Positions 43,801 through 59,370 of a DNA stretch of 64,000 nt are shown here, piece after piece. Both the position numbers and the translations under genes were made by a program. This DNA is from Halichondria panicea. Its lineage: Eukaryota > Porifera > Demospongiae > Suberitida > Halichondriidae. The notes under the pieces are model-generated. The model made no database searches. It saw nothing but the letters and a program-made list of their open reading frames with translations, and had not been told where the DNA came from. The stretch spans positions 5,147,378-5,211,377 of the forward strand of contig NC_087381.1 of assembly GCF_963675165.1 (NCBI RefSeq). Reading direction: 5' to 3'. Each line of letters starts with the position of its first letter. Position 1 is the stretch's first letter.

Positions 43801-44359
43801 AAGCTCCCACTCTTGTTGAAACTGCCGCTTCGACTGCGGCCCGCAAATGGATCCTGTGTGTGCATGTGTGCGTGTGGGTGGGTGGATTGTTATGTGTGTG
43901 TGGAGTGGGTGTCTAAAGGATACAGTTGATGCTATATAATGGCCACCCCGGCCAAATAACTGAGAAATCAAGGCCAGGTCCCAAATTAGCAATTTGTGGG
44001 AGGGGAAAACAATCCCTCAACAAGTCTGTATTAAATAGCCAAAATCTTGTTCACCAAATACGTCCGTTATGAAAGCTAAGGGGTTCCATATATTAATTGC
44101 CAGTATACAGTCAGTATATGTAGTCGAGTATTGCACATCATGCACAACAATGTGCAATCAATAACACATTAACAGTATAGCTACGTGTCAATGCGTGTAC
44201 AACTATTACAAAATTGTTGAGTACCAGTACAGGTATAGAAATAAAGCATGAGTTGGTTGCACTTGTTGTGTGAACCTGTTAAGCCTACTTTTTGTATGAA
44301 AACCTTCATGTATTGATGCAGCAAGAGAATCTATTAACAAAAGTACTTACCGAAAACAT
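27621..44359 (-). CDS. CSDE1: CSDE1/Unr-like multi cold-shock-domain RNA-binding protein
   Basis: Twenty-seven exons in transcript order: 44359-44351, 43853-43759, 43532-43493, 43297-43201, 42822-42698, 42532-42455, 42265-42209, 41914-41817, 41463-41400, 40938-40876, 40372-40289, 40005-39824, 39324-39150, 38040-37945, 37580-37533, 37321-37253, 36700-36609, 36208-36109, 35574-35482, 32365-32286, 31693-31561, 30567-30505, 30150-30031, 29358-29251, 28663-28467, 27976-27926 and a tentative last exon 27735-27621 (843 aa; human about 800). RNA-binding cold-shock motifs are [52 protein letters not shown] and YGFITC/IFFHM, separated by non-canonical CSDs as in animal CSDE1. The PERLRRK exon resembles the CSDE1 C-terminus. 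The expected role is cytoplasmic control of mRNA translation and stability. The fourth canonical CSD has FFPF instead of FFHF. The last exon is the weakest call. Confidence 0.9.
28665..28812. repeat. (TG)n microsatellite abutting a CSDE1 splice acceptor
   Basis: About 145 bp of TG with CGAG/AGTG interruptions. On the coding strand it is (CA)n ending CACACACAG, the acceptor of the exon at 28663. Confidence 0.9.
29696..29912. mobile_element. MITE with TACCGTATAGCGGGTAATTTTCGTG ends
   Basis: The inverted ends of about 30 bp are near-perfect (TACCGTATAGCGGGTAATTT at left; its complement ending CTATACTGTA at right). It lies in a CSDE1 intron. A relative is at 41133-41364. Confidence 0.75.
30651..30804. 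mobile_element. hAT-like MITE, CAGGGGCGG ends
   Basis: Ends CAGGGGCGG and CCGCCCCTG, typical of hAT elements. The flanking duplication is unclear. Confidence 0.45.
33156..35007 (+). pseudogene. vWA-domain secreted protein nested in CSDE1 intron (frameshifted)
   Basis: Exons 33156-33686, 33834-34415 and 34640-34978. A signal peptide ([12 protein letters not shown]) leads to an N-terminal domain, then a von Willebrand A domain ([15 protein letters not shown] motif, [21 protein letters not shown]), then a roughly 110-residue extracellular domain with several N-glycosylation sites. The frame opened by the ATG meets TGA at 33300-33302. The continuing domain ([11 protein letters not shown]...) is in another frame, so one base is missing here or in the assembly. 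No exon follows the GTAAGC donor at 34979. Reading through it gives a stop at 35005-35007, with AATAAA at 35061, which would yield a secreted form. The gene lies wholly inside the CSDE1 intron 32366-35481 on the opposite strand. It is a paralogue of the exon at 1-113. Confidence 0.75.
35061..35066 (+). terminator. Possible poly(A) signal of nested vWA gene
   Basis: AATAAA 54 bp after the read-through stop. Confidence 0.35.
38216..38330. repeat. Hairpin with CCCCGAGGGC motif (5), CSDE1 intron
   Basis: AGTTATAACACG pairs with CGTGTTATAACT. Inner arms CATATATTGCACT-like also pair. The loop has GGGGCGTAAGCCCCGAGGGC. Confidence 0.75.
40431..40559. repeat. Foldback repeat, 27-bp arms
   Basis: TGTACGACAGGCACGGTGCA... 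at left and its complement ...CGCGCCTGTCGTACA at right, with one mismatch. A single related copy of the right arm lies at 2070-2105. Confidence 0.75.
41133..41364. mobile_element. MITE with TACCGTATTGCGGGAAATTTTCG ends
   Basis: Inverted ends TACCGTATTGCGGGAAA and complement TTTCCCGCTATACGGTA. It lies in a CSDE1 intron and is related to the element at 29696. Confidence 0.7.
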
Positions 44360-44891
44360 TTGTGGTGTCTCTTTGTTTGTTCAATGTTATAAGTATTTCA
44401 TTCAGATATTGGGTCCGACTTTTGTTTGATTCTTTTCGTCTTGATTATATTTATTGATCGTACATGTGGATATCGAATTTTTAAAATGCGTAAAAACCAG
44501 TCTGTATAAGATATGATTGCTTCAAAAAAAGAGAGAGAGATCGTCCAGATTTGTGTTGAACCTGTGAACGTGTGTGAAAGAAGGGTGGTCATCAATTAGA
44601 ATTAGAATTTTTTATGCAAATCTTACATGTTCATAAAACACACTATTATCTCACCTATTATGCTGAGTGATTTGCCAATTTGGTGTGCTTTATAAAAACG
44701 CTACAAAGAGAAAGAAACCTAATCTACAGAGATAAAGAAGTTCTGGCTCCTGCCCAAAGAAGCCAAAGCCACTAATTAATGGGTGCAAGTCGAGTCAGCA
44801 AGATTTATAATTAAATATTAATTATTTTTGTTAGCTCGCCCATTAAATTTGCTTGTTACTATTAGCAACCACAGAAACTTTGAAGGCAAAA
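44360..44891. promoter_or_regulatory. Shared divergent upstream region, CSDE1 and NME5
   Basis: 532 bp separate the CSDE1 ATG (minus) and the NME5 ATG (plus). It should hold both promoters and 5' UTRs, unless further upstream non-coding exons exist. No clear TATA pair or binding motif is evident. Confidence 0.45.
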
Positions 44892-46699
44892 ATGGAAGAC
44901 ACTCCAATTTTCCCCGACCCTCCTGTTGTAACTGTGGAGAGAACTCTGGCTATTATCAAACCTGATGCAGTGCATAGAGCAGATGAGGTTATGGAGGACA
45001 TCAAAAGTTTGGAATTTTCCATTCTAAATGTGAGTTGTAGAGCTCAAAAATAAATTAATTTCTGAAATATTAAAATGCACCTTATAACTTTATTTTTTCA
45101 TATTCACATTCATACAAATACGATTAGTCTTGCAGACGTCTGAGACGATGTACATACCCTGTACGTACGTACATGTAGCGAACAGGCCGGATTTGTGGAA
45201 CACTGAAATTTAGATAAATTATGCTCACCTGTAGTTAAAAACTGTACGTTAAATTCATTGTACTGCCCAGAATAGTCAGTACATGTACCTTACATGTGCA
45301 TATTCAGGTAACTTACAGTCTAGTAGAGAACGGACACCTTGGGGAAATTTTTGGTTGGCCTTTCTTCATGGGTGGTGGCAGTTTAAGTGCTTCCACTGTA
45401 ATTATACAATCTCTGAAACCTGTAAAGATGCAGTAGAGTGTATTTATTGCATGCCCTTTTGCCATCACCAAATCTTTATCTCTCATCACAGCAACGCAGG
45501 TTGAGGCTGACTCCAGAACAGGCCTCCGACTTCTATGCTGAGCACTATGGCAAAATGTTCTTCCCAAGTCTCATCGCTTACATGCAAAGGTATGATGGGT
45601 TAATCTCACAAGATATATTTAGTAGCTCTGAGGAGCATTCAGTATCTCGATGGTGTGTACATGTAGATCAAAAATGTGTGATGGCTCAAAATTCTGTAGT
45701 ATTTCCATGAAGTGTTTGAGTTGAATGCATGTACCTTTTTGGTAAACTCTTAGAGTACTAAGTTACACGCACCGGATGGGCCTTATAATTATTTGCCAAC
45801 AATTTCATTGGTATAAAACCTTGTATTCCTTGCAGTGCTGACATCATAGCACTGGTTCTGGCCAAGCGTGATGCTATTCAAGAGTGGAGGGATCTGCTGG
45901 GACCCACGAATGCGGTCAGAGCCAAGCAAGAAGCTCCCGACTCACTCAGGGCAAAGTATGGGCATGATCAAACAAGAAATGGGCTGCACGGCAGTGATAG
46001 CTACCATACGGCCGAGAGGGAGATCAGATTCATGTTCTCAGAATGTAAATAAGTGAAGGGCTACTCATGTACATGTACATGCATTAATTAGTTAGTTTCC
46101 ATCATATTATGAAATTATTGTTTCTGAGGTTCAAACATTATTTTAGTGTACGTATACAGTAATGATATATAATTATAGGTACCGACGTTTCTAGAATTTA
46201 AACTAATACATGAATACATAATTATTATCTCTGTCTTTTCTTTGTCTGCAGCGATCACAGAGCCCATCTACCACGGCCAAGATGCAACTGACTATCTCCA
46301 GAGCAAAGTGAACCCTGTCCTCACCAAGGCTCTCACACATCTGTCCAAACAAAAACCAGAAGACCCACTGGTACGCACAATCATTAAAATGATGTGATGG
46401 AAATAATAATGCATCAGTTGAATGTACACGTGACGTACGACTATTTTTCATGTGTGAATCTATACTGCCCATCCCCTGCTCCATTTTGAGGACAATTATT
46501 TGTATGCAGTTGCTAGTTACCCTAACCAACTATTCACCTACATAAGCGTATAATCATGTAAAGTACAACTTAAAGGCTCAAAATTGTATTTTGCTTATCT
46601 GCATCATTCACGCCACTTATTCCCTTGCAGACCTGGCTGGCTCAATGGTTGCTGGACAACAATCCTAACAAACCCAAAGTGACAGAAGTGGACACATGA
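44892..46699 (+). CDS. NME5: NME5-like nucleoside diphosphate kinase homologue
   Basis: Exons 44892-45029, 45492-45589, 45836-46044, 46252-46370, 46631-46699 give 210 aa, about the usual NME5 length. The NDPK domain spans residues 14-150: ERTLAIIKPDAV, TPEQASDFYAEHYGKMFF, and the active-site region NGLHGSDS with the catalytic His. A Dpy-30-like C-terminus follows (QSKVNPVLTKALTHLSKQKPEDPLTWLAQWLLDNNP). The family is tied to cilia, flagella and the radial-spoke system; kinase activity in NME5 is doubtful although the His is kept. The start is the only ATG that begins a normal NME5 N-terminus. Confidence 0.93.
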
Positions 46700-47088
46700 A
46701 CTCATTCATAATTATAGTTACAGAAACTGTGTAGCACATTACATTTTTATGTTCATGTTTATGCAATTGGTATGACCACAGTGGTACATGTAGTGCCTGC
46801 AGCGGGAATTTAAGTTATTTTAGGTGAAAATGAGGGTGATCGTAAAAATGTATTACTACCAGTATTTTTGATCAAAGATAGAAAATTTAATGTGCAAACA
46901 GTTAGACCTTAGCCAACGCATAATTATGTTAGATTCCTTATTAAACCGACAACGATTGGTCTTTTCCATCGCTAAAGCGATACGTATAATTATTGTCCAC
47001 TATAGCTCTTCATAAACCACCAAATACGTTTATACCCACCACCTTAATTAAGGAAACAATAATATTTTATGTATATTATTATTTTAAT

Positions 47089-50000
47089 ATGCCTAGACAA
47101 TTAAGTCATGCGTATAGTATAGGCAAATCAGATACGCCCCTTTTTGGTACTAGAGGTACGTGTACGAACAAGTTTGTAGCTAGATCTACGAAAATGAGGC
47201 ACCGTACAACGAACAAGAAAACCAAGAAGCTAAGGAAGAAGTCTCTGGAATTGCAGGCCTTTGTTAAGCATTCCAGTGAGCTTCATGAAGTTCTCAATGA
47301 TGGTGTGTTAACAAGATTGGTTTGGGATCTCTTCCAAGCTGAAATATTCTCTCAAGCCACAGTTAGTAGTATAACACACGTCATGCTTAGTGAGAGTGAT
47401 AAGGCTACAAAGCTCGTTGGTGCTATAATACAGTCTATTAAGTCTGATAACTCAAATTTACTGACCATCCTCGATTGCTGCGACAAGTATCTTGAGTTGA
47501 AGCCGGTCGTTATGCGAATGAGAGAAGAATACGACCATCTCAAAGATGTTTCGCCAGGATTTAAGAATGGTACGTAAGCGTAGCTAAGAGTATATTAATT
47601 AATGCAACGTAGTTAGTAAGTAGTGATCAATCAGGTAGTAAAACTGTATATCGCAACATTTTCAAAGGGCTTAATTTTCGCTTTTTTCGTGGGTTAGCAA
47701 TCCTACATGAAAATTGCTTTTTATCTGCTATAACGTGGAGGGAGTGTTTCCGGTTCGAGGCATTTCGTTGAATAAATTGTGTGGGTTGACTGCTTACCGG
47801 AAACATTCCCAGGCCATGTCATCAAATCTTTACACGTTATAGCAGATCATTTCATGTATACGGTTGCTAATTCCCTCAAAAACAGCGAAAAGTACTACCG
47901 TATATCTTTTAATTTATCGGACAGCAAAAAATAATTATTTGGGAAATTTTCCGGGTATAATTGGAACAGATTTTTATAGAGCATGCGAAGTGTCCGGAAT
48001 AATTAGAACAAGCAAGCAGCTGCATGCGAGCTAGCTAAGTTTAATAGAACAGGGTACGACTGAATAGTTGCACTAGCTATCTAAAACTAGCTACTCAAAG
48101 CTATCTAACTGCAGCACTCTAAGTATAATTACTTGCCATCAATGAATGGTAACTCAATTTTTTATATTGTCCGGATATTTAGAACAAATGTAATATTAAA
48201 GTACTGGAGTGTCCGTTGTATTAGAACAACGAAAATTGCCCAAAAGAGTGTCCGGGGTAATTAGAAGTGTCCGATAAATTATAAGATATACGGTAACACG
48301 TACTATGATGACAGTAGACTCTCGCTATTCCGGCTCTCTGAAGGTACGGCCACCTCGATATACCGGCCGTTTGGTTTGGCACGAATATATGTTTACTGCA
48401 CAAACTCACCCTGCATGAAGTACGGCCACTCGCTATTCCGTATACTGGGCAGCGCTGGCTCCCAAACTAATAAAAAGAAAACCAAGAAAACCAACCCCCT
48501 AGAGGACCGGGTGGGTGGGAAAAATGATTGAAGCAGCTACTCCGCTCTCAGTACAATATTAAACAGGTGGTCGCACGAGGCTGGTCATCCTAATACGCAT
48601 GCGCGGCCACAGCCGCACCCTGGGTAACCCCCTTTGGCGTTAACTACGTTTAATTACATTTTATATACATTTTATTACGGCCGGATTTGACGTTTTGGGT
48701 GTGGTTTGGCAGATAAAATTGGATTACACTTAAATAGAGAGTAAAATGATTCATTAATTATCATCCTTCATTATCCTCGAGACAAGAACCGCTCATTAGA
48801 TTCGAGGTAAGGTCGTTTTTAAGCAGCGGCTATTTCCTGAAATACAGCCACCGCGCTATTCCGGCCAAACTGCACTAGCTGTCCCAAGGGTGACCGGATT
48901 AACGAGAGTCTACTGTGTAGCTATATATACACATGTGATGAGCAGTTGGTATAATTATGTGCCGGGAACTGATTGTAGATTTCACTGTGATGATGCATGA
49001 GCATGTCTCATTAAAATAATTATGATGACAATAATTATATTTATACGCTTTGGTCTGAATTCTCAGGTTCACGTAATCGTCAATTTATTATTTATGCTTA
49101 CATTCACAAATTTAGAAGTTATTGCAAGCCCAGCTGGACAAAACAGATCTTGTCCTGGACTAACAAAGAAGTGCTGTGTGAGAGGCACAATCGCCACCAT
49201 AATATCAATTTTTGTATTGATGATAATTGGATTCAGATGTGTGAATTATGTTGAAGGACGTTTTGAGATAACTTTTTTGGGTATTGGTCAAGACCAACAA
49301 ATTTTAGAACATGAGTTTGAAAGAAGTGATGACGAAATGCCAAAGCAAATTAGTTATGGCAGGCCAAATGCACCTCTAATTAACATCAGTTTACCATTGC
49401 CGTCTCGCCCCATGCCGTTTGTTGGTAGAAAAGAATTAATAAACGAAATAATACAACGTCTTCTTGGTACCCACACATCAATAGTAGGATTGTTTGGGCC
49501 TCCTGCGTTCGGAAAAAGTTCATTGGCTATTCATGTTGGTCATGAAGTCATGAACAAAAAAGGCGTTAGTGTAAGCTACGTTGATCTAAGCGAATTCAGA
49601 CTATCCTTTGAGCAACAACCTCACGCCAGAAGCCATGTCAGAGGAGTTCAGATACATGGTGACAATTTTGGGAAACGTTTACTAGGCAGGTCTGTCAACG
49701 GTGACCACCTATTGAACTGGGCAGCTACAATTGAAAACATTTCTATTTTGATTTTTGATAACTGTGATCCTGTTCTCAATAAATGGCATGATGAATTCCA
49801 AGAGTTTATACTAGATTTGAGAAAGTCATCTAGAAATAATTTGAAGGTCATAATTACAAGCCAGCTAAAAATTTCTTTTGTGGACCACTTTACTGATATT
49901 GAAGTGTTAGAGTTAAGTGACAAGGATTCAAAATCCTTAATCAGTGTTCTTCGACCAAATTTGAATCATCACTTACAAACTGAAATAGTTGAACTCGTAG

Positions 50001-51463
50001 GAAACTGCCCTTTGGCAATTAAGGTGGCAGTTATGCTGCTCAAAACAATTAGCCCGACAATGTTAATCCAAGATCTAAAGGCAAAAAATGTTGATGTGAT
50101 ATCTTCTTCACAATTTCCAAGGCGTGAGAGATTCAATGTTGTAATGGACACTGCTTGTCAATATCTCAGCAACAACTCCATAAGAGCAGCATATCTCTTT
50201 TCGTTATTTCCTGGTTCATTTGATGAAGATGTTCTTTCATTTTCGTTTTTCAGAGAATTTCGTGATGAGGTCAACAATCTTTTTGAGCGGTCTCTCTTTG
50301 AAAGGTACGCTCACATTTTTGGAGAAAGATACAAGTTGCATAAGCTAATAAAAACATATTTTAGGGAGAAGATTTTGATAGATTCAAAAAATGTATTGAA
50401 ATCTGACTTCAAAACAACATTCGTAGAGTATTATACAAAGAAACTTTATAATTATCTCACTTCTATAAAGTCGATTAAAGAACCAGCTCAAAAAGACCAA
50501 CTTATCACTAGCGAACAGCATAACATACGACAGCTAGCTAGAATTTTGTTAAGTACAGAAGATCACTACTTTTCTTCAGAAGAAATAATAGTTCTTCTAT
50601 TTTATTCTCAACAAGGAGGCTTAGAGAGCAACCATTCAAGTATTATTCTAGATGTCACGCTTACATTTTTAGAAGAAAACAACACATTGCTGAACAAAGC
50701 GTGCTCTCAGACTTACACGAGTGTATGCAAAGTATTGATATCCGACCTATTGCTCTCCATTACCGAAACTGGCTATACATACCTCCCTTGTACAATTTGT
50801 GACACAGTTAGTGGCCCAGACAAGCTCATGAACTTTATCACTGATGACTTGCTACAGTTAATTGACAATTCTTATGTTTTCTGCTCACAAAACAATTTTG
50901 CACATAACATTGTCAAGATTTTGAAGTATTTGCTTTTTTCATTGGAGTGTTGGTTTTCATTGCAGTATTCTTCAGTTGTCTTTCGCGTTCAAATGGGAAA
51001 GACTGGCTCATTTCAATCTTTATTGCACTTTCTATATTTTTTTTTAGTGATTCAAACAATTGAATCTTACGTTATGCTTTGTTTCACAATTTTTCTACTT
51101 GTGATTTTGTATGCTTTGAGAGGTTATATCTGGAACAAGTGTGTCACTACTCATCTTTTCTTTTTGTGCATTCTTTATCTTAATTTTTATGTTTTGGGTG
51201 TTTTAGCTAACGCTCTTGGATATTTTTCACTAGAAGGAAATGGATCAATGAGATACCAACAGTGGTGTCTATTATGCATACATTTAACATGTAAAAACTC
51301 GTTTTGGATCGCAAATTTTCTTAACAATCTTATATGCTCAGTAATTTTTCCTGGTATTCCTCTATACTTTATAGCTAGATATTTTGTTGGCAGCATCATT
51401 AGCTTATTTATGAGTGATTTTCATCAATTTGTATACACAAGTAAAAGACGTTTCCACAATTAG
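47089..51463 (+). CDS. CARD + NB-ARC STAND protein with multi-pass membrane C-terminus
   Basis: Two exons, 47089-47569 and 49116-51463, join in phase 1 (942 aa). Exon 1: a basic N-terminus, then a roughly 90-residue helical domain resembling a CARD (about residues 58-150). Exon 2: one hydrophobic helix (TIATIISIFVLMIIGF), linker, then NB-ARC: Walker A GLFGPPAFGKSSLA, Walker B SILIFDNCD, VIITSQ in the sensor-1 position, GNCPLAIKV in place of GLPLA, AAYLFSLFPGSF, and LHKLI in place of MHD. The last about 200 residues hold four or five hydrophobic segments (LLHFLYFFLVIQ, YVMLCFTIFLLVILY, LFFLCILYLNFYVLGVL, PGIPLYFIARYFVGSII). No LRR or WD repeats follow. A membrane-bound innate-immune or death-signalling sensor is inferred. 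If the exons are not joined, exon 2 could start at 49022 with its own hydrophobic leader. AATAAA at 51499 fits the end. Confidence 0.75.
47665..47893. mobile_element. Foldback MITE in the CARD/NB-ARC intron (a)
   Basis: Arms TTTTCGCTTTTTTCGTG..TTAGCAAT, TGCTATAACGTG and TTTCCGG are matched in reverse by CCGGAAA, CACGTTATAGCA and ATTGC(T)AA...AGCGAAAA. Confidence 0.65.
47896..48295. mobile_element. MITE, TACCGTATATCTTTTAATTTATCGGACA ends (b)
   Basis: Inverted ends of about 28 bp (TACCGTATATCTTTTAATTT / complement ending AAGATATACGGTA). The interior has three or four GTCCGG(A/G)(A/T)AATTAGAAC-like units. Confidence 0.8.
48312..48915. mobile_element. pogo-like MITE, CAGTAGACTCTCG ends (c)
   Basis: Ends CAGTAGACTCTCGCTATTCCGG and CCGGATTAACGAGAGTCTACTG. 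The interior has CTATTCCGGCC repeats. 604 bp, no transposase. Confidence 0.75.
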
Positions 51464-51498
51464 CTTTTTGTATTCACACAATCCCCATTATGTTTAAT

Positions 51499-51504
51499 AA
51501 TAAA
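51499..51504 (+). terminator. Poly(A) signal of the CARD/NB-ARC gene
   Basis: AATAAA 36 bp after the stop codon. Confidence 0.55.
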
Positions 51505-53350
51505 ATTAATATGCAATTCAGTTATACCTAAAATTTTATAGTTATGTTTGTTCTTATCGGATTGTCTTATATGCAACCAATCGGCTGGAGTATGTATAAT
51601 TATGTGTGGATACAGAGGTTACATGCAGAGGAGAGAAGAACCTAATTAGTTTTTGGCATCACTGTATTTTGTGCAGTCATAATTATATATAATTATAGCT
51701 TTTTTTATTTAGTTTTTTGTGTTATTATTTTGTTTGTCTTGTGTTTGCTATTGTAAGGATTCCACATTAGACCATCTATGATAAGCTTCTCAGACTCAAT
51801 ATCAATAATGGGTAAAGATGATTAACTAGACAATGAAAAAGTAGTAGAAAAATCAGAAGTAGGCGTAGCTGGGAGAGGCTCGATTCACATGTAGATCTAC
51901 GTGTACACAACTCTGGCTCTTTGGCTACGGCCTGTTGCAGGACAGGTATATAGGTCTACATCACTGTGGATATTCCCAAGAGAGACTCTGAGTAACCACG
52001 TACTGACTGATACAAGTCTAGGATTGATCCCACACTTGTACACTGTACTGCTGGTATGTTGTGATAAAGCCATGACAAATGGCTGTGTCGCGTCCGTTTG
52101 TTAATTAATAGACAACCAAACGATACATCGTATCTATGGATAAAGCGTCCGCTATTGTAGTGTAAATGCGCACACACTTATTATTTTGTGCCATTGCCCT
52201 TTTTATAGCATTCTGATGATCCTATTGATTTCTTTTGTTTGTGTAACTTCTAGGGCTGTATTTTATGTCGTACACAAAGGAAATTCCCGTGCTTTGATTC
52301 CGGTAGAGTGTTCACACTTTGTATTTGTACAGTTCACAATCTTTGATGCTGCAACTTGAGTTAACAGTTCAGCATGTGTCTAATGTTGAGTCAGTATATC
52401 ATGTGCTGTGTGTACATGTTCTAACAAAGCTTAGCTCATGTGTTTTGCTTTCCAACCATCAAAGATAATTATTGTTTAATGTCACATTTTGTTTATTGTG
52501 CAAGCCTCCGCTTGTTGTCATGTGCTTGTAAAGGCATTTGCAACTCTTGTAAAAAGCTTGTAACACTCGTGTACTAGCTGGTTCAGCTTATAGTATTTGT
52601 TGTTTTGAAAAGACACATGACAGAATAACGACACCTCAGCAGCATGTACAGTTGTGTTTATAAATAGTTGTGCTTGTTTAGATTTATTATTAGTATCAAA
52701 AAACAACCTGAATTCAGTAAAGTCTTCTTCATCCATTATACGCGCCAATCAAGAAGTTATTTGTGAGTTATAATTATCTTATTTATCTTAGTACGTACCT
52801 AGTTTAAGTACGAACTGTATCTGAGGTTATTGTGAGAGCTTGATTGTGTTTGTATCTGCTATCATTATGTCATTGTCTTTTTTCCGAGACTTAATTTACA
52901 AGGTACTGATGTGGATATTTATGTTGTGGTTGTGAATAGCGTATAATATCTCAATAGTGATCATACCACCATTAAGAAATCTTAAACCAAGCTTTGGCTA
53001 CAGTACATTAGGGTCCGAACCGTGTTTGCAGATATCCACACCTTATATTATCAAGCTGGTTGATATCGATGCATAATAATAATATAATGATGACACGTCT
53101 AATAAGCTTGCACTATAGCTACAGTGATACTGTTACCAGTTGACATTCTTCAAGTTTGTGTTATTGTTTTCCTGGCTTGTTTACAATACAAGAATCTGTT
53201 GCTTTTATTGCTGCACTTTAAGTTAGTGCAATGCTCGATCATGTGTACAGTCCCTAATTAATAGCAGACACATTTTAGGCAACAAAGTTAATTAACAAAA
53301 AGCCCGTTTAATAATTAAAGCTCCACTGTGATACTTACAGGTATACAAAC
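51505..53350. other. Intergenic, AT-rich, no gene recognised
   Basis: A minus-strand ORF at 52733-52518 (MDEEDFTEFRLFF...) has no family resemblance or splice context. The rest shows no coding pattern. It presumably includes the TBC1D25 promoter. Confidence 0.45.
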
Positions 53351-54277: not shown

Positions 54278-57200
54278 CACACACACACGCACACACCTAC
54301 ACCTACACACACACACACACACCACGCACGCACACGCACACACGCACACGCACACACACACAGTGACCAGAGAACCATCGACCTGGAGAACAGAGCTAAC
54401 TACCTGGCACTTCGACAACGCTGGCAAATCCTCGATAATACAATGCAATCCCCCGAAACAACCATCCATGACCAACCCTCGTATCTAGAACTGAGCGACG
54501 ATGAAATAGTTAATCAATCCCGATCAAATTCCCCCTCCTCCAATGAAAAATCCCCTGTCACAAATGATGAATCTCCGACCAATGATGATACAGGTTCGAT
54601 AGAGGCCAGTTTGGACTGCAGTGGAGAAATGTGTAGCCGATGTCACAAGATGATAGCCTCGGGCTCTTTAAGTAACTCTGTAACTACAAACAGTGAAAGC
54701 GGATTTTCAGAAGCTTCAAACACGACATTCTCCTCATGTACTTGTACAAAAAGTGACCAATCAAAAAGTTCTGAAAATGATGGAGTTACATGTAGGCGCA
54801 CAACTGTTGATCTGTCTGCATCCTCTGAAAATGAGTCTGGGTGCGAGACTAATATTCAACCTACAACCTCAAGTACTAATGGTTCAACTTTATCCCCGAG
54901 CGATGGCAGCGGGTGTCAGAGTGTTGATCAGAGCTCGTGCAGTTGCAGTCGGTCAGTTGGGGAGACTAGCAACGAGTGTGGCATCTGTCAGGAGAGGGAG
55001 GAAGGTGTGAAGAAGTGCGTGTGTGAGTTCAAGAGCAGCTGTGAGAACTTGAGTCAAGACGATGAGGCTTTGTTGAAGATCCTCGATTTCCCTTCTCGGG
55101 TGAGTCAGTGTTTTTAGTAAATGTGCCGAGTACTGTGAGCTAGTACAGTGCATGTGTTTTGCTGCTCTATTAATTAGGCTAGAATGTAAGGAATGTTGCC
55201 CAATATATATATAAGGGCGTATGGAATCCTATATAGACTAATAGAGCATAAGTTCATATTAATTAGCATTAACAGTTTCTCCTTTTAGCATTAAGTTTAT
55301 ACTTGTGCACGGTTACACATGTGCAACGTATTCAAACATTGACACTCACCACACTCACTTACCACCACCCCACACACGAACCACACATACACACACCACA
55401 CAACACAGGTATACGCAGCTCGCCGGCCTGTCCAGTTAGAGACCAGCTATCCCAAGGCCAGGAGAATAGTTCTCAGAGATGTGGCCAGAACTGACAGGAA
55501 CTATCACTACTTCACTCACAAGCGCAACCTGAGGAAGGTCCACAGAATACTCCTCACCTACGCCATGTTTCACCCGGGTGAGTTAGAGCTATGGTATATA
55601 CTGTACGCGGTTTAGAAGGAGTGATATGTATAAGAGTTCTCCTAATTGCTGTAATTGCTGTAATTGACTTTATTTATTGTGTATGTACAGTTCTTCCGTA
55701 CATATTACAGTCATGTACATGTTTTTGTTTCCTGGTAACGTAGTAAGTTTTCAGTGACCATGGCAATTGCAATTATAAGTAACATACTTTCACTAAATAC
55801 ATGTAATACATTACATCGTCACAAATGACACTCCAAATGGAAGTTCGACACATTTTTAGTGATTTAATTGGCCACCCCCCCTCCCCCCTCCAGAGGTTGG
55901 CTATGCCCAGGGCATGAACGACATCCTGGCCCGGTTCCTAGTGGTGACAGACTCGGAGGTTGACTCGTACTGGCTGTTTGCCAGCTACATGTCCAAGAAG
56001 AGAGAGGACTTCCTCGAGCACACCATGATGAGGAAAGTTGGTGAGTGCAGTGGCTCTTGTATCACTAGTGCATGTAGTGTGCTGTAATAGAGTTGTGATT
56101 TGCATTAACGATTCCGCATAATCGATTACCAATTAAGTGTGGCCCGTACACTGTACAGGTTAGGTGTGTGTGAGTATATAATTGTAATAGGTTGCACTGT
56201 CTGAATGTTTTCCTGTTGGTCTGCAGCATTTGTGAAGAACCTGGTGAGGGAGGTGGATAGAGAGTTGTACAGCTTCTTTGACAAGTCTGATTGTCGTGAC
56301 TACCTCTTTTGTCACAGGTGAGTGGGGTGTGTCCATGCATGGGAAATTAGTTGCTTACTCCTATAGTTGAAGGTTGTTCGTTTGAATATACTACACTGTT
56401 ACCTCTATACAGTATATAGACTACATCAATTTAACCGAATGCGTAGGTGGTGGTGTGATATCCACATTACAAACGCACTCTGTAGTGTTTTGCACTATAA
56501 CAATGGTTGATCTTTACCTAACACAAATCCCTGTAATGTTTTGCACCAGAGGAGGAATGCCAGTGTCAAAAGGTCACTAATTAAAACACCATATGGCCCT
56601 ATGTTTTACATGTAAAACTGAGTTTACCCTCGTGCCCCTGAGTTTATACACCACCAATAGCTTGATCCTCTTTATAATCACAACAGAAATCGGTTGAGCT
56701 ATCGCGCCCCAGAGGAATCAGCTTGAGAGGAGATCCAGGATTTAATTGCAACCTTTGTCCTTTTACTGCATTCTTCAAAACCACAAGATATGGAAATTAG
56801 CCTTCCATGGCTAGGGTATAAATTTTGATGTACTGGCTTGCTGCACTGGATAGACCTAGGTATAGCAAGCTTTCCAAGCAGGCAAATAAAGAACAGAAGC
56901 GCTAAGCTGCTATATGCAGCAAAGGTCAAGAACCCAGAACAAGAATGTTTAATCCTTCATTAAACGTGACTCTATTGACCCTGGCGTTCCTCCTCTGGTT
57001 TTGCACTGTTGATCTTTACCATACAAATCCCTGTAGTGTTTTACACTATAAATAGTTGATCTTTACCTAACACAAATCCCTGTAGTGTTTTGCACTATAA
57101 CAATGGTTGATCTTTACCTAACACAAATCCTGTAGTGTTTTGCACTATAACAATGGTTGATCTTTACCTAACACAAATCCCTGTAGTGTTTTGCACTATA

Positions 57201-59370
57201 ACAATGGTTGATCTTTACCTAACACAAATCCCTGTAGTGTTTTGCACTATATCAATGGTTGATCTTTACCTAACACAAATCCCTGTAGTGTTTTGCACTA
57301 TAACAATGGTTGATCTTTACCTAACACAAATCCCTGTAGTGTTTTGCACTGTAACAATGGTTGATCTTTACCTAACACAAATCCCTGTAGTGTTTTGCAC
57401 TATAACAATGGTTGATCTTTACCTAACACAAATCCCTGTAGTGTTTTGCACTATAACAATGGTTGATCTTTACCTAACACAAATCCCTGTAGTGTTTTGC
57501 ACTATAACAATGGTTGATCTTTACCTAACACAAATCCCTGTAGTGTTTTGCACTATAACAATGGTTGATCTTTACCATACACAAATCCCTGTAGTGTTTA
57601 TTTGCACTGACTGTAACAAAGGCTTCGTTAAAAAATAATATATCTTTTCCCCATGCATAGATGGCTGTTATTAGACTTCAAGAGGGAATTTCCCTTCGAG
57701 GAGGCCCTGAGGATATTTGAGGTGCTCAACAGTCAGTACCTGGAGCTCAACTCTGACCGGGCTCTCGTGGTAACAGACAAGGTCATCGCCAAGGAGTTTG
57801 AAATGGATGGTGAGTGCTCGTTTATGCATGATAATAATTAACATGTACAATCATTTGTATAGGTCTATTAAGTTATAGAAGAGTACTATACGTACAATCT
57901 CCCTACCCTATGCAGTCCTCTATATGCATGCATGTAGTCCTGTGCCTGCATGCATGGGTACATTTATTGGCTATAGATAATGCTGCACCCCATAGTCATG
58001 TATTGATTCCATAGATAAAGGAATTCGAATAAAGAACTTCTACCCCTGTATTATACACTTGTATTTTCTTTATTCAGCTGGTGAGACCCGCTCTGAGAGG
58101 TCAGAGGTCAACCTGGAGTTCACGTTTGATGTTTTTGTGTGTGTGGCAATTCTGACAATGAACAGTAATGACATTTGCAAGGCTTCTGATGCTGCTGGAA
58201 TCTATGGCTGTCTCAACGGGTGAGTGAAACATGTGACTTTGTATCAATACTGGTGACAATGCCTCTATTGTTTATCAATTGTGCCAATTAAGGCTGCTTA
58301 TAGTATGCTTATACTCTAAAACTTAGATATGTACAATGTATATTGTCCATGTACTCCATCTGCCATATGGTAATTGATGTAGTGCCAGTGTGACAATGCC
58401 TCTACTGTCAATCAATTGTGCCAATTAAGGCTGGTATAGTTTATGTAGACTCTAAAACTTACAATGTATATTGTCCATGCACTCCATTTGCCATATGGTA
58501 ATTGATGTAGTGCCAGTGTGACAATGCCTCTATTGTCAATCAATTGTGCCAATTAAGGCTGGTATAGTTTACGTAGACTCTAAAACTTACAATGTATATT
58601 GTCCATGCACTCCATTTGTCATATGGTAATTGATGTAGCCAGTGTGACAATGCCTCTATTGTCAATCAATTGTGCCAATTAAGGCTGGTATAGTTTACGT
58701 AGACTCTAAAACTTACAATGTATATTGTCCATGCACTCCATTTTGCCATATGGTAATTGATGTAGCCAGTGTGACAATGCCTCTATAATAATAGTAATAC
58801 AATATGCATGACCATTACAGATACACGTGTATGTGAATACTGAATAAAGTTTGATATACATTTCTGCTGCAAATCAATCTTGGATCTTTGCTAACCGCTT
58901 CTCTATAGCTCATGCGAAAAGGCTGTAAAATGCTGTATAGGGACGAGCTATATAGCTCGGTTTTTACGGTTGTGCAAAATAGCAATTAATTCAGGGTGTG
59001 GCTGTCCGTTCTGGAGGTTATTTTCCATTGCTAAAGCAGATTAGGAGTATAGAAAACTGCTCTTTATACGCAGTATAGAGAGGTGGTCGCTCCTGAGAGG
59101 TTGCTTTACATTGAAGTCATTGTATAGTTTCAATCCGGACCTGAGCTCTTGACCGTTTTATAGCGTGTGGTTGCTCTTCGGAAGTGGTTGTTATGGAGGT
59201 TCCACTGTTCTTTTGTTGGCGGTTCTATGCAGTTAACTAAGTATGTCATTCCCATGCACAGACTCTCCATGAAGATGAATCTGACTGAAGTACTGACACA
59301 GGCAGAGGAACTGTTTTACAAGTATTGTAGACAGAACATCACTAGGGGATTTGCTGAGATAGACTTGTAG
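53351..59370 (+). CDS. TBC1D25: TBC1D25-like Rab GTPase-activating protein
   Basis: Nine exons: 53351-53498, 53745-53820, 54364-55099, 55409-55577, 55894-56040, 56227-56317, 57661-57809, 58078-58219, 59262-59370 (588 aa). The start (VSDSEFSDWFDSDGRL...) matches the segment before the TBC domain in TBC1D25. TBC motifs: LWKFLFEIYP; RIVLRDVARTDR with the Arg finger; VGYAQGMNDI with the Gln finger (YxQ); RWLLLDFKREFPFEEALRIFEVL; FVCVAILTMN. Both catalytic fingers are present, so GAP activity is expected; in animals TBC1D25 acts on Rab GTPases in endosome and autophagosome traffic. Exon 3 inserts about 200 Ser/Cys-rich residues (MCSRCHKM, CSCSRSVGE, ECGICQE, CVCEF) into the N-terminal half of the TBC domain; this part is not recognised. 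Human TBC1D25 carries its own extra residues near the site of LNSQYLELN. Confidence 0.85.
54104..54363. repeat. (CA)n microsatellite abutting TBC1D25 exon 3
   Basis: Interrupted CA/CGCA/CCTACA repeat ending CACACACACAG, which is the acceptor of the exon at 54364. Confidence 0.9.
56480..57600. repeat. 51-bp minisatellite in TBC1D25 intron 6
   Basis: About 11 copies of a 51-bp unit (…TGTAGTGTTTTGCACTATAACAATGG-type) run from 56998 to 57600, and one copy lies at 56480-56546 to the left of an inserted MITE. The unit is a multiple of three and open in one frame (VVFCTITMVDLYLTQIP), so the array makes a spurious 167-codon ORF. Two degenerate units remain in the duplicated locus near 60050-60115. 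Confidence 0.92.
56547..56997. mobile_element. 451-bp hAT/MULE-like MITE inserted in the minisatellite
   Basis: Ends CAGAGGAGGAATGCCAGTGTC and complement ending GTTCCTCCTCTG (near 24-bp inverted repeats). It is flanked on both sides by GTTTTGCAC (56538-56546 and 56998-57006), a 9-bp target duplication (8 bp if the end is set one base in). The target sequence is the minisatellite unit itself, so the array existed before insertion. Confidence 0.85.
58235..58790. repeat. Tandem repeat of 120-136 bp in TBC1D25 intron 8
   Basis: About 4.3 copies beginning (T/G)TGACAATGCCTCTA at 58253, 58390, 58520, 58645 and 58766. A shorter array is at 60840-60990 in the duplicate. Confidence 0.85.

Follow-up and report, generated by a model that had tools for sequence, protein, structure and literature searches.

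STAND ATPases are immune switches of animals, plants and bacteria and are mostly regarded as cytosolic; Apaf-1 and CED-4, in which a CARD is followed by an NB-ARC domain and a winged helix, are soluble, and Apaf-1 additionally has WD40 repeats. Membrane-bound NLRs have been reported in the sponge Dysidea avara (PMC12909245, which cites a first report in Amphimedon queenslandica), in sea anemones (PMC5094078) and in a sea cucumber (PMC13133943), so that the premise of an earlier note on the DNA analyzed here, namely that NB-ARC sensors are soluble, does not always hold for NB-ARC and NACHT proteins. Here, we describe a gene within a window of 64,000 nucleotides from Halichondria panicea (contig C5 of a 131-Mb genome in 39 contigs) that very probably combines a CARD, one transmembrane (TM) helix and an NB-ARC domain, in this order. 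As in Apaf-1 and CED-4, the CARD is followed by NB-ARC and a winged helix, and the layout as a whole is close to, yet distinct from, the few described membrane-bound immune switches.

Like the family presented here, the sponge membrane NLRs are animal STAND receptors with TM domains and include CARD and Death variants in their repertoire, but they are NACHT-LRR proteins, whereas the present family has an NB-ARC domain, lacks LRR and carries a hydrophobic region at the C-terminus (PMC12909245). In D. avara, an NLR with a predicted TM segment is among the genes responding to microbial patterns (PMC6208332). The sea-anemone NLRs, which were found by NACHT and LRR, are likewise predicted to be membrane-bound, but carry a cluster of three to five helices at the N-terminus (PMC5094078). 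AjNLR-new of the sea cucumber, reported as an extracellular NACHT receptor, resembles the topology proposed below in having its nucleotide-binding domain outside and its signalling domain inside, but combines NACHT with an Ig domain instead of NB-ARC with a CARD (PMC13133943). Trichoplax sp. H2 has 39 NB-ARC genes (PMC6321704), and an NB-ARC protein with a membrane helix was not found in the excerpts of PMC8260672 and PMC8242945. In a full-text literature search, whose coverage leaves out most subscription papers, the combination CARD-TM-NB-ARC with a C-terminal membrane region was not found among the matches listed.

The gene is predicted to consist of two exons on the forward strand of the window, located in the open frames 46990-47577 (the smaller) and 49001-51463 (the larger). 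Exon 1 (47194..47569), which encodes the CARD, starts with the ATG at 47194 and ends in phase 1 at the donor GTACGT at 47570. It is followed by a phase-1 GT..AG intron (47570..49115), placed by splice sites and phase, and by exon 2 (49116..51463), which encodes the TM helix, the NB-ARC/STAND ATPase, a winged-helix and helical region and the C-terminal hydrophobic region. Exon 2 is open in the window and in a second copy of the gene, L021, and its paralogues were identified by six-frame search. The open frames, the intron and the hydrophobic segments lie where the earlier note had located them; its start at 47089 was ruled out, because the stretch 5′ of 47194 is unconserved in L021 and contains stops there. 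Compared with L021, exon 1 aligns without gaps from 47181 onward (397 bases, 91% identity), a conserved block that favours the ATG at 47194, which we take as the start. Both exons are kept in L021, whereas the intron aligns over no more than about 74 bases. Nine genes (window, L021, L023, L024, L025, L026, L027, L028 and L032) support the predicted two-exon model, since in each of them a phase-1 exon end and a phase-1 start of the TM exon give an open join. This is not a blind test, since the splice sites were picked by eye from printed codons (L022 and L029 were left unjoined); the join of L023 uses its second, weaker CARD-like frame, the donor of the first being unsettled, and that of L032 implies a 3980-base intron that may conceal exons.

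When the window protein, L025 and L029 served as queries for six-frame searches, each returned the same ten genes on contigs C5 (2), C14 (4), C11, C6 (2) and C8, as well as an additional 37-residue piece at C14:4672481, so that the family comprises at least ten genes. The predicted CARD-TM-NB-ARC layout is a family trait and not that of a single odd gene; paralogues of the same layout, which the earlier note had proposed to look for, are present. A death-fold exon lies upstream in 9/10 of the TM-NB-ARC genes, L022 being the one for which none was found. It was recognized by comparison of the copies (window and L021), by exon family (L023, L024, L025, L026 and L028), by Pfam CARD (L027) or by Pfam Death (L029), and these cases are not independent, since window/L021 and L024/L028 are pairs of close copies. 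The same plan is seen in L032 (4471-8088; G000:C17), a TM-NACHT-LRR gene akin to the sponge membrane NLRs, with NACHT and LRR_8 above the Pfam cut-off and, some 4 kb upstream, a CARD-like exon (21.4 bits, below the cut-off of 23.9). The NB-ARC genes share with at least one NACHT gene a TM helix located precisely where the death-fold domain meets the switch, via the same type of phase-1 junction, which suggests that early animals assembled transmembrane death-fold receptors from NLR parts.

According to structure prediction, the exon 1 product has the six-helix fold of a CARD, with the CARDs of caspase-9 and Apaf-1 as the closest matches of the model in structure comparison. Profile tests controlled by shuffled or reversed sequences also gave this assignment, which agrees with the CARD-like domain of the earlier note. 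A profile built from ten death-fold exons, including that of L027, returned 23 sequences from the PDB, 16 of which were counted as CARDs, with none below E 0.03. After removal of L027, L032 and the second L023 frame, the search gave 16 sequences, with Sin3 at the top (0.01) and one CARD, ICEBERG (0.3). In view of these outcomes, the PDB sequence search was not used as support for a CARD.

The NB-ARC nucleotide-binding domain (49397..50107, boundaries approximate) was delimited by motifs in the alignment and by a ten-member profile. It contains GPPAFGKS (49496-49519), LIFDNCD (49748-49768) and GNCPLAIK (50000-50023), which we take to be the Walker A, Walker B and GxP motifs, respectively. The adjacent winged-helix-like region (50108..50407, boundaries approximate) has a conserved His (50339-50341, LHKLI) at the position of the MHD motif. 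D214, C216 and D217 of Walker B, P298-L299-A300 and the winged-helix His408 are unchanged in all ten members. Against the PDB, the ten-member profile matched the solved STAND proteins AfsR (7.9e-8), PH0952 (4.6e-7), NRC4 (4e-5) and Roq1 (0.0014), so that the NB-ARC proposed earlier is borne out by both profile and motifs. Binding of ATP is expected for the window protein, since its Walker A is intact; L028 has the altered version GPPAFEKS and may be without nucleotide binding.

In Pfam, the window protein itself stays below both thresholds: its first exon has no CARD match above the gathering score, or any CARD match at all, and its NB-ARC match reaches 11.9 bits compared to a gathering score of 23.5. 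Single-sequence Pfam and PDB searches of this protein were uninformative, so that evidence at the family level and the structure model were needed. Among the paralogues, L027 exceeds the Pfam CARD cut-off (24.7 vs 23.9), the Death match upstream of L029 is barely above its own (22.9 vs 22.6), and L026 clears that of NB-ARC (31.5 vs 23.5). Across the ten members, matches at E 0.1 or better comprise AAA_16 in six and ATPase_2, nSTAND3 and NB-ARC in five each (best NB-ARC 1.1e-6); from this mixture, Pfam by itself points to a STAND-type NTPase.

TM1 (49184..49246), preceded by the basic stretch TKKCCVRG, is a single hydrophobic helix. Hydropathy predicts such a helix immediately N-terminal to NB-ARC in 10/10 members, with a hydrophobic span of full length in each, in agreement with the single helix noted before between CARD and NB-ARC. 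For the C-terminus, four or five membrane segments had been claimed. A hydrophobic region is indeed present (51017..51460) and offers room for three to five helices, but their number is unproven: three clusters attain 1.6 on the Kyte-Doolittle scale, and two segments pass a stricter insertion-type scale (with a weighting of our own). On the latter scale, eight members have 2 to 6 C-terminal segments, L029 has none, and L028 ends early. Neither LRR nor WD40 matches were detected by Pfam at E up to 10 in the window protein, which carries hydrophobic segments in their place, as stated in the earlier note. Some members also carry repeats, as TPR_1 matches weakly in 2/10 and TPR_12 at 1e-4 in one.

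Taken together, the gene looks intact at the sequence level, belongs to a real family and probably encodes a membrane-anchored CARD-STAND signalling receptor. Of the membrane-tethered STAND immune or death receptor proposed earlier, the tethered STAND protein with a CARD is supported, and we infer the receptor or death role. The predicted layout would consist of the CARD, one TM helix, the NB-ARC switch with its winged helix, a helical region bearing cysteines and, replacing LRR or WD40, a membrane domain at the C-terminus. A ligand, a nucleotide or a disturbance of the membrane would serve as the cue for NB-ARC to swap ADP for ATP and to oligomerize. The NB-ARC ring, tied to the CARD by one helix, would then collect CARDs at the membrane, and the gathered CARDs could nucleate a CARD assembly recruiting caspases or NF-kB adaptors.

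Because one helix separates them, CARD and NB-ARC should lie on opposite sides of the membrane. The likeliest single topology, which we propose tentatively, has the CARD in the cytosol and NB-ARC in the lumen or outside the cell; the protein would then be a death-fold receptor that spans the membrane and carries an NLR-type switch as its ectodomain. Such an inside-out NLR, equally tentative, would cluster its NB-ARC outside or in the lumen, perhaps in response to ATP outside the cell or to a microbial signal, and drive cytosolic CARD/Death signalling via one helix, like the TNF and Toll receptors. Lys and Arg within 20 residues of TM1 are more frequent on the CARD side in 8/9 joined genes, and in 7/9 that side has the higher net charge. 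Within the cysteine region (50702..50800; Cys codons at 50702, 50726 and 50798), three Cys are the sole invariant residues of seven members over 97 gapless columns (471-640, past the winged helix; P 2.7e-5 under random placing, for a region picked after the alignment had been inspected), which would be expected if they form disulphides outside the cytosol or bind a metal.

Several observations weaken the case for this topology. The charge bias is reversed in L023 and L027, and when L026, L027 and L029 are added, only the third Cys is still invariant, two of the three being missing in 3/10. N-glycosylation sequons occur at chance level in 11/11 proteins, so that an extracellular NB-ARC finds no support in their counts. 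The sequon counts favour an alternative that is rather unlikely: in the same protein, CARD and NB-ARC could both be cytosolic, with a helix that is re-entrant, peripheral or inserted on activation, guarding an organelle or the plasma membrane from within. Well-known NB-ARC proteins act in the cytosol, which also speaks for it. However, the helix is a hydrophobic span of full length in all ten genes, basic residues prevail on the CARD side as described, and the cysteines invariant in seven members would be left unexplained.

That the gene is a decaying duplicate without function is improbable. L021 lies on the same contig, 310-317 kb off and in inverted orientation, and four longer aligned pieces, including flanks, show 90-97% identity between the copies. 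The window gene thus sits within an inverted segmental duplication, and other members are interrupted (an in-frame TGA in L023, a change of frame in L027), short (L028) or altered in Walker A (L028), all of which would fit decay; because of their interruptions, L023 and L027 may be damaged or contain further introns. Both copies on C5 remain open, however, and the ratio of nonsynonymous to synonymous divergence (dN/dS) between them is 0.24 for exon 1 and 0.47 for exon 2. Judged by these sequences, exon 1 is under coding selection (synonymous excess, Fisher p 6e-5 from rounded counts). Synonymous divergence is 0.76 in the linker and TM1 and falls to 0.04 in the two regions that end exon 2, a drop for which gene conversion may be responsible. 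With four synonymous changes each, dN/dS in these two regions (0.62 and 0.31) is a weak measure, since synonymous divergence is so low.

Least probable is that the exons are separate genes, one for a protein with only a CARD and the other, without introns, for a membrane STAND protein. An ATG at 49022, upstream in the exon 2 frame of the window, would fit this reading, but L021 has a stop at this position, L024, L025 and L028 lack an in-frame Met before the helix, and the nine phase-1 joins stand against it.

The duplication pairs window positions 44084-52881 with G000:C5:5505500-5515000 (L021, reverse), extends to both ends of the 9.5 kb compared and also takes in the gene upstream, by its motif presumably a nucleoside diphosphate kinase. 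The intron of the window gene holds two stretches with terminal inverted repeats of 28 nt (47896-48295) and 23 nt (48311-48916), which are perhaps small DNA transposons. Among the other loci, L028 (4495-6249; G000:C14) stops ahead of the C-terminal hydrophobic region, and the frame of L029 (4238-7057) opens with a long CA/TG repeat, translated in frame as His-Thr, that is probably intronic. At L033 (4588-5058; G000:C14:4774587-4775057), a CARD-like exon of the family occurs without any frame of at least 300 codons in the surrounding 9.9 kb.

Two further CARD-NB-ARC genes, L030 and L031, resemble Apaf-1 and differ from the present family in their many exons; WD40 repeats in L030 were recognized by eye only. 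As a control without a helix, no L031 frame shown passes the insertion-scale threshold, whereas one L030 frame does (0.81), right before the P-loop exon. We read this hydrophobic stretch as a putative intron, because L030 and L031 match only from RWLVVHG on; its position before the P-loop makes the pair a weak control. The NLR repertoire predicted for this genome is very large: NACHT matches number at least 102 above the cut-off (102/265 candidates scored), most of them on C13, C14 and C7, and many are clustered and have long open frames. The presence of CARD, Death and NACHT-LRR genes points to an animal genome, and so large a NACHT expansion is in keeping with a demosponge without being proof of one. 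Among peptidase exons screened for silicatein as a sponge marker, one resembles silicatein but retains the Cys. Finally, an open frame at 57111-57638 of the window consists of copies of one unit, about MVDLYLTQIPVVFCTIT.
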